Below are positions 17,898 through 20,135 of a stretch of 36,966 nt of DNA, one piece after another. The notes beneath the pieces are model-generated. The model worked only from the letters and a program-made list of their open reading frames with translations, was not told the origin of the DNA and did no database searches. The stretch's first letter is position 1. Each line of letters opens with the position of its first letter. The position numbers were made by a program, and so were the translations under genes. Source of the DNA: an uncultured Planctomycetota bacterium (GTDB lineage Bacteria; Planctomycetota; Phycisphaerae; Sedimentisphaerales; UBA12454); contig CAINDG010000034.1 in assembly GCA_903847315.1 (NCBI GenBank), positions 1-36,966 of the forward strand, given 5' to 3'.

Positions 17898-18380
17898 TTG
17901 TACAGGCGTCTGCGATACGGCTATCCCTTTAGGCGTATTCGTCTGTCGCGAGGCCAATATGCAATCGTAGATGTGGAAGATTTTGAAAAGCTCAGCAAAC
18001 ACAAATGGTGCGCCATCCCAAAACGCGACACCTTTTACGCCAAACGCTATGGCCTGAGAAACGGCAGATATACTACAATAGCTATGCATCAGCAGATTAT
18101 GCGTCCCCCTGAAGGATTATTTGTTGACCATGAAAACCATAACGGGCTGGACAACAGAAAAGCGAATTTAAGAATCGCCACACCCGCCCAAAACGCCTGC
18201 AACAGCAGAAAGAGCGCAAACCCCTGCAGCTCAAAATACAAAGGCGTCTCTTACGACAATGACAAAAATCTATGGCGGGCTTATATAACCTATAATGGAA
18301 AGCGAACATATTTAGGCAGGTTTGAAAACGAGGAAGACGCCGCGCGGGCCTACGACAAAGCCGCACAGTTGTACTTTTGA
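17898..18380 (+). CDS. HNH endonuclease with AP2 DNA-binding domain (unusual start, premature UGA)
   Basis: 160 aa from the only standard in-frame start, TTG 17898. HNH domain at residues about 64-92 (His64; 'DHENHNGLDNRKANLR' with Asp77-His78 and Asn90). AP2/ERF domain from about residue 113 ('YKGVSYDNDKNLWRAYI', 'YLGRFENEEDAARAYDKAA'). Such proteins are homing-type nucleases of phages and mobile DNA. Two oddities: the frame is open and protein-like upstream to 17820 ('IEITIPIKFEVKIRPPLANW'), where GAGGAG sits 7 nt before an ATC codon; and the stop TGA 18378-18380 interrupts the AP2 domain where a Gly codon is expected. Either a decaying gene or one with non-standard initiation. Confidence 0.78.
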   Translation: MYRRLRYGYPFRRIRLSRGQYAIVDVEDFEKLSKHKWCAIPKRDTFYAKRYGLRNGRYTTIAMHQQIMRPPEGLFVDHENHNGLDNRKANLRIATPAQNACNSRKSANPCSSKYKGVSYDNDKNLWRAYITYNGKRTYLGRFENEEDAARAYDKAAQLYF

Positions 18381-18487: not shown

Positions 18488-18778
18488 ATGAAGCGATATT
18501 ATATTTATATACTGGCAAGCAAAAGAAACGGTGCTCTCTATATTGGCGTAACTAATAACTTAATTGGCAGAGTAAGCGAACACAAAAACAATAGCATTGA
18601 TGGCTTTACCAAAAGTCGCGGCATTCACACTCTTGTCTACTATGAGGAATTTGATGATATCCGCAAAGCCATTGCCCGGGAAAAACAATTAAAAAAATGG
18701 CCAAGGCAATGGAAGATAAGATTAATTGAAAAGGATAATTTAGAATGGAAAGATTTATATCCTGATTTATCATCATGA
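18488..18778 (+). CDS. GIY-YIG family nuclease-like protein (UPF0213 type)
   Basis: 96 aa, a single GIY-YIG domain: 'YYIYILASKRNGALYIGVTN' contains the two motif halves (YIYI...LYIG), followed by the Arg in 'LIGRVSEHK', then 'GFTKSRGIHTLVYYEEF' and 'AIAREKQLKKW', which includes the conserved Glu. Such small proteins are widespread; they are related to homing and repair nucleases, but most lack a tested activity. Preceded by GAGAG at about 9 nt. It lies between the HNH-AP2 gene and the DpnI operon, forming a cluster of DNA-acting genes. Confidence 0.9.
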   Translation: MKRYYIYILASKRNGALYIGVTNNLIGRVSEHKNNSIDGFTKSRGIHTLVYYEEFDDIRKAIAREKQLKKWPRQWKIRLIEKDNLEWKDLYPDLSS

Positions 18779-18860: not shown

Positions 18861-19049
18861 CTAATTCAAATTATCAAAAAAATCTTCTTCAATAATTCCA
18901 GTCCCAATTAATTTATAACATTCCTCCGGATGAGCCATGAAGAGTTTAGATAGAATATCTTCAAGAAGTTTTGCATCGTTGGGAAAGTCCTGTTTTCCAT
19001 CCCATTCGTCAGCAATTCTGTTAGCAATAGCCCTTGCCCATTTATTCAT
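18861..19049 (-). CDS. Small protein, third gene of the DpnI-like operon
   Basis: 62 aa from ATG 19049, chosen because it overlaps the nuclease stop as ATGA; an in-frame ATG at 19061 would add 4 residues. Soluble, acidic, helical: 'MNKWARAIANRIADEWDGKQ', 'LLEDILSKLFMAHPEECYKL' and an acidic end (EEDFFDNLN). I recognise no family. The coupled translation suggests a job with the nuclease, such as a regulator or inhibitor. It is not obviously DpnD of the pneumococcal DpnI locus. Confidence 0.7.
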   Translation of the reverse strand: MNKWARAIANRIADEWDGKQDFPNDAKLLEDILSKLFMAHPEECYKLIGTGIIEEDFFDNLN

Positions 19050-19819
19050 TTTTTCGCCCATCGATAAAACCCTCGCCTGACAAATTCTAAATATCCCAAA
19101 TCTCGTAAAACCTGCAATTGTTGCCTTATCTTATCTCTGACATGATAATTTTCCGGGTGTCTTTCGGATAAAGCACTTTCAAATAAATAAGCATCATCTA
19201 AAGTAAACTCTGATTTCTTTATCGAACGCAGGACTGTAAGAACATCAAGCGTCCAACCCCTTGTTTTCGTTGATAAGTCGCTTAACGGCTGAACCAAACG
19301 AAATCTCTCTCTGACTTTCCCTTTCGGTGATATGAATCCTGAATTAATTACATTAATCCTGCCTTCGGGCGGAACCATATCGAGAATTATATTACATCCC
19401 ACCCACCCGGCGCGCCGTGCACTTGAACTCAATGGTTTTCTTGCTTCGATAGCCGACCTCGGCAGACAGAATTTTGGTATGATTAAAAGGTCTTTAACTA
19501 TCGCGCCAATATTATCATAACTAAGTAGCAAAAAATGCGGCAATTGGTCTCGTGTAATTGCCCTTATCATGGCATCATAAGCGGCATCGACTATTTTCCT
19601 GCCAAAAGGTTTTGATACCGCTTTAAGTTGATATTGCGAATCGCACCCGGAACAGACAAAATCTACAGCTTCCGTCCCTGTTCTGGTTTTATCTAAACGG
19701 TCTGAGGTACACGCCGGACAATACATATTTTCAAAGGCCCATGCCTCCGTTATGACCCGCGCCCGTTGCGATGCGCTTTTATATCCCTGTGCCTCTTTAA
19801 TCGGTAAATTTAGAATCAT
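19046..19819 (-). CDS. dpnI: DpnI-family endonuclease (methyl-directed GATC restriction)
   Basis: 257 aa; pneumococcal DpnI has 254. Similar along the full length: 'YKSASQRARVITEAW', zinc ribbon Cys34/Cys37 and Cys56/Cys59, catalytic Asp53, Lys66, then 'RKPLSSSARRAGWVGCNI' (DpnI has 'RKPLAPTARRAGWIGCNI') and the C-terminal winged helix ('RGWTLDVLTVL', 'SEFTLDDAYLFES', 'KIRQQLQVLRDLGYLEF'). DpnI cuts G(6mA)TC, using both domains to read methylated DNA. Position 64 is Gln instead of Glu, a change in the metal-binding E-x-K; activity is probable but untested. The specificity is inferred from the family. Second gene of an operon with ATGA overlaps on both sides. Confidence 0.95.
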   Translation of the reverse strand: MILNLPIKEAQGYKSASQRARVITEAWAFENMYCPACTSDRLDKTRTGTEAVDFVCSGCDSQYQLKAVSKPFGRKIVDAAYDAMIRAITRDQLPHFLLLSYDNIGAIVKDLLIIPKFCLPRSAIEARKPLSSSARRAGWVGCNIILDMVPPEGRINVINSGFISPKGKVRERFRLVQPLSDLSTKTRGWTLDVLTVLRSIKKSEFTLDDAYLFESALSERHPENYHVRDKIRQQLQVLRDLGYLEFVRRGFYRWAKK

Positions 19820-19980
19820 TGCTTTTTATATCTTATAAATGCTTCAACCGCTTTATCGAAATCGCCAAAGGCAAATTCTGCAAGCTCCTCTATTGTGGCA
19901 TTTACCGCCACTTCATCAAATTCTTTGTTAAGGAATTCTAGGAAACCCGAATTTGTTTCATATCGTTTAGCTTTATCCAT
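19816..19980 (-). CDS. Small protein, first gene of the DpnI-like operon
   Basis: 54 aa from ATG 19980; its TGA overlaps the nuclease ATG (ATGA). Acidic and helical: 'MDKAKRYETNSGFLEFLNKE', then 'TIEELAEFAFGDFDKAVEAF'. No family recognised and no resemblance to the Dam fragment upstream. The ATG lies 8 nt past the -10 box, so the mRNA would be nearly leaderless and no Shine-Dalgarno is seen. The overlap makes it likely to be a real gene; it may control or assist the nuclease. Confidence 0.7.
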   Translation of the reverse strand: MDKAKRYETNSGFLEFLNKEFDEVAVNATIEELAEFAFGDFDKAVEAFIRYKKQ

Positions 19981-19987
19981 GCCACAG

Positions 19988-20016
19988 ATTATTGATCAAC
20001 CAAAAAGCCTTGTCAA
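19988..20016 (-). promoter_or_regulatory. Promoter of the DpnI-like operon containing a GATC site
   Basis: Minus strand: TTGACA (20016-20011), 17-bp spacer, AATAAT (19993-19988), then ATG at 19980. A GATC (19994-19997, within TGATCA) directly abuts the -10 box. The TGA stop of the Dam fragment lies within the -35 box. Confidence 0.6.
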
Positions 20017-20135
20017 TTAAATATCAAAAGTCTGTTTGGCAGACGTTTTTCAATCTCGTCAAGAAGTTGTGTTTTACCTCCTGCCCATTTCAGAAATGGT
20101 TTAGCCGTTATTGTTTTTTCTATAGTTGATATCAT
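20013..20135 (-). pseudogene. dam: Truncated Dam-type adenine methyltransferase (N-terminal 40 codons)
   Basis: ATG 20135 to TGA 20015-20013, 40 aa. '[18 protein letters not shown]' is the hallmark N-terminus of Dam/DpnM enzymes (FLKWAGGK, part of the S-adenosylmethionine site), followed by 'EKRLPN'. Intact enzymes are about 270-280 aa; everything after about residue 34 is missing, including 'EPFxGGG' and the DPPY catalytic motif. The fragment runs into the promoter of the DpnI-like operon, so a deletion or cassette swap seems to have joined them. Confidence 0.8.

Follow-up and report, generated by a model that had tools for sequence, protein, structure and literature searches.

A DpnI-type nuclease and a small, translationally coupled protein encoded upstream of it (p54) sit, in an uncultured Planctomycetota bacterium, within the remnants of a methylation system that the nuclease would attack. 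The window, i.e., the whole stretch of 36,966 nucleotides analyzed here, is contig C34 of genome G000, the assembly of which is 2.4 Mb in size and 97% complete. We give about even chances to the reading that this locus is a 6mA-dependent, dam-displacing cassette, in which the promoter would be gated by the attacked mark and p54 would serve as a control protein. The relevant features, all on the minus strand, are the following.

18861..19061, minus strand: orphan ORF of 66 aa (62 aa from an inner ATG at 19049), sharing an ATGA overlap with the nuclease stop
19046..19819, minus strand: DpnI-type nuclease of 257 aa, with a catalytic domain (D53, Q for E64, K66) and a DpnI_C winged-helix (wH) domain
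19816..19980, minus strand: p54, 54 aa, acidic and predicted helical, in the control slot and ATGA-coupled to the nuclease
19988..20016, minus strand: promoter-like site TTGACA-N17-AATAAT, top of a GATC-blind scan
20016-20011, minus strand: -35 hexamer TTGACA, overlapping the end of the dam stub
19993-19988, minus strand: -10 hexamer AATAAT
19994..19997, minus strand: GATC abutting the -10 hexamer, found in the blind scan and proposed as a methylation-gated site
20013..20135, minus strand: dam stub, approximately the first 36 codons followed by a stop (TIGR00571, 1.6e-07)

Operon Structure and the DpnI-Type Nuclease

The three-gene operon is confirmed. The original prediction had described three frames joined by ATGA overlaps, and in these minus-strand frames an ATGA is indeed present at both junctions, combining the stop of the 54-aa frame with the start of the 257-aa frame (19819-19816) and the stop of the latter with the start of the 62-aa frame (19049-19046). 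The middle frame, proposed to be a DpnI homologue, matches this family over its full length (PF06044, 1.5e-54; PF17726, 1.6e-27; PDB 4esj, E 1.8e-58), and both domains are full length at 184.9 bits (PF06044, cut-off 26.7) and 95.9 bits (PF17726, cut-off 23).

The nuclease itself is of a known kind. Similar to R.DpnI of S. pneumoniae, it is a two-domain nuclease that keeps the listed GmATC-reading residues: in the alignment, the methyl cleft (L129, R135, and W138, with G140), the base contacts (R126, S17, and Q18), and K229 and R231 of the wH domain are all retained, as are the catalytic residues D53 and K66. It differs from R.DpnI in having Q at E64 and G at N48. The roles of the catalytic, methyl-cleft, base-contact, and wH residues are those reported for R.DpnI (PMC4117772); residue numbering was transferred via the 3-residue offset of the 4esj chain, a mapping of our own. 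We infer that the window nuclease is specific for GmATC, and it is presumably methyl-directed. The E64Q replacement, which could reduce catalysis, recurs throughout the sister clade (L039 reads QVK), and a classical E at position 64 is found in five loci (L030, L031, L032, L044, and L009).

The family comparison comprised 17 DpnI-family loci, including L040, which has an in-frame stop, and L033, the C-terminus of which is not alignable. A DpnI piece at a contig end (L043), L045, and weak wH-only matches (L022-L029) were kept outside the neighbor analysis, and several stretches are duplicates (L117 and L035 of L007; L036 of L008). The gene at L040:4391-5170 encodes a Q-clade DpnI-type nuclease and is interrupted by that one stop.

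Both small partners had been judged unlike DpnD, which agrees with the absence of PF14207 from either protein. DpnD-type ORFs (PF14207) follow the nuclease in the classical DpnI loci L031 and L009, whereas the window partner p54 lies upstream and is not DpnD. The 62/66-aa gene did not hold up as a recurring partner and was detected in one of 161 genomes of the order, its own. The 62/66-aa protein matches no Pfam or NCBIfam model at E 1 and has no relative in the other order genomes or in plasmids; one 17-residue viral match to the 66-aa protein was noted (L056). Because no relative was found, the ATGA overlap is the sole mark of this frame being real, and its product, a presumed accessory, may be dispensable.

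The p54 Family Accompanies wH Nucleases

Members of the p54 family were identified in seven of the 161 order genomes and in six of 397 genomes of the class, all six of which belong to that same order; none was found in plasmids, phages, or viral contigs. The 54-aa frame had been put forward with its conservation as the point to check, and it proved to be under purifying selection, with pN/pS of 0.23-0.43 across 15 pairs of six members. Compared with the five others, the window p54 has pS of 0.71-0.95, i.e., strongly diverged silent sites, and pN/pS of 0.28-0.38, and its conservation as a protein in spite of such divergence indicates that p54 is a real gene.

The original prediction regarded the small ORFs as partners of DpnI. 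For p54, coupling and conservation stood and recurrence beside other DpnI homologues held narrowly, but the protein is not DpnI-specific: it precedes two of the 17 DpnI-family loci (the window and L008/L036) and occurs with another nuclease fold as well. In L113 and L114, p54 overlaps a gene in which a PLD nuclease domain is joined to DpnI_C (PF13091; PF17726 about 2e-24), and in L115 it overlaps a truncated copy of the PLD-wH gene. PLD-wH genes were assigned by Pfam in L113 and L114 and by similarity to these two in L136-L138. Because p54 also precedes the PLD-wH nucleases of L113 and L114, it goes, on gene neighborhoods, with the wH 6mA reader and not with the DpnI catalytic fold. In L098, p54 occurs without a nuclease, and in L116 p54 itself is broken.

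The six p54 proteins are acidic (pI 4.2-4.75; 4.64 for the window protein). An AF2 model of p54 contains four helices (pLDDT 82, pTM 0.61), and a Foldseek search with p54 recovered no structural relative (best E 7.6). A DNA-binding HTH was considered for helices 30-38 and 41-53 of the AF2 model and rejected, as the proteins are acidic and Foldseek was empty; a RecX identity was disregarded at 20.1 bits in NCBIfam against a cut-off of 351. We consider p54 likelier to be an inhibitor or regulator of wH nucleases, at about one chance in three, than a DNA binder; the former role is favored because p54 is acidic, occupies the C slot, is co-translated with the nuclease, and is common to two wH-bearing folds.

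A second small family, p81, is located downstream of the nuclease in the p54 loci L008:5777-6022 (DpnI-type) and L114:6461-6958 (PLD-wH). This family has no Pfam family over cut-off, and a relative is present at L028:1951-2307, a locus with a weak wH match. Directly behind p54, L098, L115, and L116 contain similar convergent methylases of 275-284 aa (PF01555 in the L098 copy); in L115 and L116 a protein of 216-218 aa comes next, the L116 copy of which has no Pfam family. The methylase of these three loci perhaps represents another R-M system that truncated the p54 operon.

A Control Slot Shared With C-Type Sister Loci

The wH domain scores over cut-off in 12 of the 161 order genomes. p54 lies upstream of the wH nuclease in four of them (G000, G045, G250, and G389) and an XRE (C-like) gene in five (G404, G772, G260, G769, and G304); the listed stretches of G034, G020, and G023, all classical DpnI, contain neither. 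Each alternative, p54 or the C-like gene, is found with both nuclease folds. Among solved structures, the L135 C-like copy is closest to the R-M controllers C.BclI (8e-17) and C.AhdI (6e-13).

The C-like gene and the nuclease are closely spaced at four of the five C-type loci; the exception is L007, where they are approximately 775 bp apart, so that the C promoter there may not serve the nuclease. An amino-methylase gene (MT2) is present downstream in all five, its L135 copy cut by the contig end and its L138 copy approximately 2.4 kb from the nuclease. These sister loci, in the order C, nuclease, and MT2 and with a C-like gene in the p54 slot, resemble C-protein-controlled type II R-M systems, whereas the window has p54 and no C or MT2 match: the C-like protein of L136 found no counterpart in the window, and the search for a cognate methylase at the window locus yielded no MT2 and only a stub of dam. 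Palindromic C-box-like repeats (CTACCTATAGGTAG) are present upstream of the C genes in L136 and L138, and the same repeat stands upstream of p54 in L098.

Remnants of Dam-Containing Cassettes

Upstream of the operon lie a dam stub and a GATC promoter, both absent from the original prediction. The stub is 72% identical to the Dam protein of L097 over 36 aa and is the sole TIGR00571 match of its own genome, at 27.5 bits and under cut-off. The arrangement is therefore of the Neisseria drg type, in that dam is cut short at the site and G000 (97% complete) contains no further Dam-model match. Among the 12 wH genomes, two have Dam-model matches over cut-off, namely, G045 (290 bits, beside the nuclease and lacking the usual ELLITN-like end) and G250 (122.6 bits, on another contig); weaker matches occur in G034 and G023.

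Aligned 5′ stubs of dam extend over 36 codons in the window, 62 in L113, 32 in L114, and 20 in L116, and these differing breakpoints suggest repeated loss of dam. The stub lies 1.9 kb upstream in L114, where a C gene precedes it, and 2.9 kb upstream in L116. dam is full in L098; in L008 it lacks only its usual ELLITN-like end and is fused to a second dam piece. No dam was found at L115, which is at a contig end, and no dam stub in the C-type loci (0/5). 3′ pieces of MT2 were identified in L008, L113, L114, and L116 and not in the window or L115. The dam upstream in L008 raised the possibility of a true R-M system formed by DpnI with Dam, which was rejected in view of the reduction of dam to a stub at four loci (the window, L113, L114, and L116).

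Relatives encode cassettes in the order Dam, R, and MT2 with an exchangeable R gene (L094-L098, L102, and L103). For this comparison, 17 genomes scored over the dam cut-off and 12 loci were taken together with G045; L104 and L105 are not Dam-R-MT2-like and stand outside the ten controls. The R types, read from cassettes other than L099-L101, include DpnII (L096 and L097, PF04556), MutH (L095), DUF6996/6997 (L102 and L103), and, in L098, a 405-aa protein that belongs to no Pfam or NCBIfam family; the last two types, DUF6996/6997 and the 405-aa protein, may represent new GATC endonucleases. MT2 is present in nine of the ten Dam cassette stretches (not in L099). Because of Dam and DpnII, the Dam-R-MT2 cassettes can be read as GATC systems. 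L098 retains the whole Dam-R-MT2 set without the nuclease, and most p54 loci resemble cassettes of this kind that have been gutted.

A Conserved GATC at the Promoter

The stretch upstream of each first gene was searched for its best promoter with a GATC-blind, sigma70-like scan, designed post hoc, after the GATC had been noticed, and using, as in the background and drg scans, approximate promoter weights. The blind best promoter carries a GATC at its -10 in 10 of 12 operons and in none of 23 controls (Fisher p 3.6e-7, shared ancestry uncorrected; the counts are not independent because the promoters share ancestry). By class, these are six of seven p54 loci (not L115), four of five C-type loci (not L135), none of 13 solitary DpnI loci, and none of ten Dam cassettes. 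The background frequency, taken from a mechanical set of ORFs of at least 150 aa, is 3/489.

The layout seen in the window is repeated at six of the seven p54 loci, where the promoters read as TTGACN-N17-NATAAT with a spacer ending in TGATC in 6/6. Collected DNA contains 11 unique strict matches to TTGACN-N17-NATAAT, and the six with GATC are all six p54 promoters. Among nine different spacers bearing GATC, every remaining column reaches at most 6/9, in a table restricted to GATC-bearing promoters; the strict-motif, blind, and background scans are less biased. The promoter GATC is common to sister operons despite strongly diverged silent sites. An extended -10 element does not explain it, because the canonical TG sits two bases nearer to the -10.

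The L098 gene start was moved nine bases so that the promoter fell within the scanned stretch. Because the longest p54 frame begins inside the -10 region in L008, L113, and L098, a downstream ATG is taken as the p54 start at these loci, a choice compatible with the alignment. In L115, the p54 locus with a promoter lacking GATC, the nuclease is broken; in L135, the C-type locus lacking a GATC promoter, it is intact. In the literature, among the matches listed, no recognizable description of a GATC at the promoter of a methyl-directed nuclease was found.

Insertion Site, Neighbors, and Mobile Carriage

A thioesterase gene marking the site is present in nine of 13 genomes of the family, the window's own included. 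At the eight other flanks, w21263 stands beside the thioesterase gene in 8/8, and the gene after it follows in the same order in 7/8 (not in L061); none of these eight flanks contains the dam stub, p54, or the nuclease. Adjoining the operon on the opposite strand, the window encodes an HNH-AP2 homing-type endonuclease (17898-18380) and a GIY-YIG protein (18488-18778). In viral contigs, a search with the DpnI alignment matched wH-domain pieces only (five loci), and searches with the window nuclease alone or with PLD-wH gave no match.

Proposed Mechanism and Alternative Explanations

In the reading that we favor, a solitary DpnI/Drg-like, 6mA-dependent restriction cassette would have taken over a GATC R-M locus, and its enzyme would cut incoming Dam-methylated DNA. 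A GmATC-cutting nuclease would have to stay unmade in a Dam+ cell. There the promoter GATC would be methylated and the nuclease off, if the effect of methylation has the proposed direction; in a Dam- cell, the promoter would be unmethylated and the nuclease on, so that its production would be confined to cells whose chromosome is safe from cutting. Silencing through GATC methylation at the -10 would need no protein, and p54 may replace the controller protein of the sister loci as a second control level. Binding of wH or p54 at the promoter GATC is an alternative to methylation gating, and if MT2 makes GmATC, the gating scheme fails at C-type loci.

A more far-reaching version, which we hold somewhat short of even, is a self-sensing system in which GmATC silences the promoter. 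Such a system could enter Dam+ genomes harmlessly and would arm on loss of dam; the p54 family would act on wH whatever the nuclease, and the dam and MT2 stubs, with their differing breakpoints, would be fossils of repeated arming. The interlock is not general, because a promoter GATC is missing from the solitary DpnI loci and from L149, a Neisseria drg locus.

Among known systems, R.DpnI offers a parallel in position, as the window operon stands where a GATC R-M cassette was, and DpnI is an alternative to DpnII (PMC12707154). Neisseria drg is likewise a DpnI-family gene at a truncated dam (PMC4269198); it differs in that, at the one locus compared (L149), the 400 bp preceding the gene are devoid of GATC and no GATC promoter is present. 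Cognate sites in a system's own promoter are described for CfrBI, AhdI, and LlaDII, where methylation affects the methylase promoter and, in CfrBI, thereby favors the nuclease promoter (PMC12707154), whereas here methylation would silence a nuclease attacking the methylated site. Control by promoter methylation is described as apparently rarely used (PMC12707154).

The locus could instead be an ordinary case of dam replacement, in which dam gave way to a DpnI/Drg homologue, the small ORFs are passengers, and the promoter GATC is a chance inheritance from a homologous promoter. Insertion of drg in Neisseria with truncation of dam is known (PMC4269198, PMC516771), the 66-aa gene is an orphan, and common descent is probable for the p54 promoters. 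We nevertheless regard this explanation as unlikely, though worth keeping in view, because p54 is under purifying selection and precedes two nuclease folds, the GATC is kept while other spacer columns vary, and a GATC is rare at other promoters (10/12 vs 3/489).

By analogy with R-M genes for which promoter-methylation control has been described (PMC12707154, PMC3874152), the GATC might be a feedback site of the cognate methylase (MT2 or Dam), inherited from the ancestral R-M system and not an interlock. The presence of MT2 and C-like genes in 5/5 C-type loci fits such feedback, but the Dam cassettes lack a GATC at the -10 before dam (0/10) though MT2 is present in 9/10, and the window, L113, L114, and L116 keep the GATC though their MT2 is missing or a stub, which makes it rather improbable. 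A type II toxin-antitoxin system, in which p54 would neutralize the wH nuclease and the GATC would be an operator for p54 or the nuclease, read regardless of methylation, is most doubtful: the small acidic upstream ORF is coupled, G022 (full Dam, no wH match) keeps p54 and its promoter alone, like an orphan antidote, and PLD-wH enzymes either failed to yield protein or proved toxic, even in Dam- E. coli (PMC11037411), but C-type operons have the GATC without p54, and a nuclease in a Dam- host should need no antidote.

Implications for Methyl-Directed Restriction

As far as our searches extend, a p54 family tied to the wH reader and the exchange of p54 and C genes in one slot appear to be new, as do the takeover of Dam-R-MT2 cassettes that left fossil methylases behind and the conservation of GATC at the promoter, all judged from gene content and alignments. 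The wH-fusion 6mA-dependent endonucleases (Helbrecht et al., 2024; PMC11037411) similarly carry the DpnI_C reader on interchangeable nucleases. How methyl-directed nucleases coexist with genomes bearing the attacked methylase, or pass from one such genome to another, is a question raised in that work under "Avoidance of genomic conflict" (PMC11037411), where conflict is suggested to be possibly avoided via tight expression control; a term search of its main text yielded neither "promoter" nor "operon".

p54 represents a concrete candidate regulator or inhibitor of 6mA readers, which would be of practical value since PLD-wH enzymes resist expression. A recognition site on the nuclease's own -10 box would provide a simple, testable, and regulator-free answer to the question of self-conflict.
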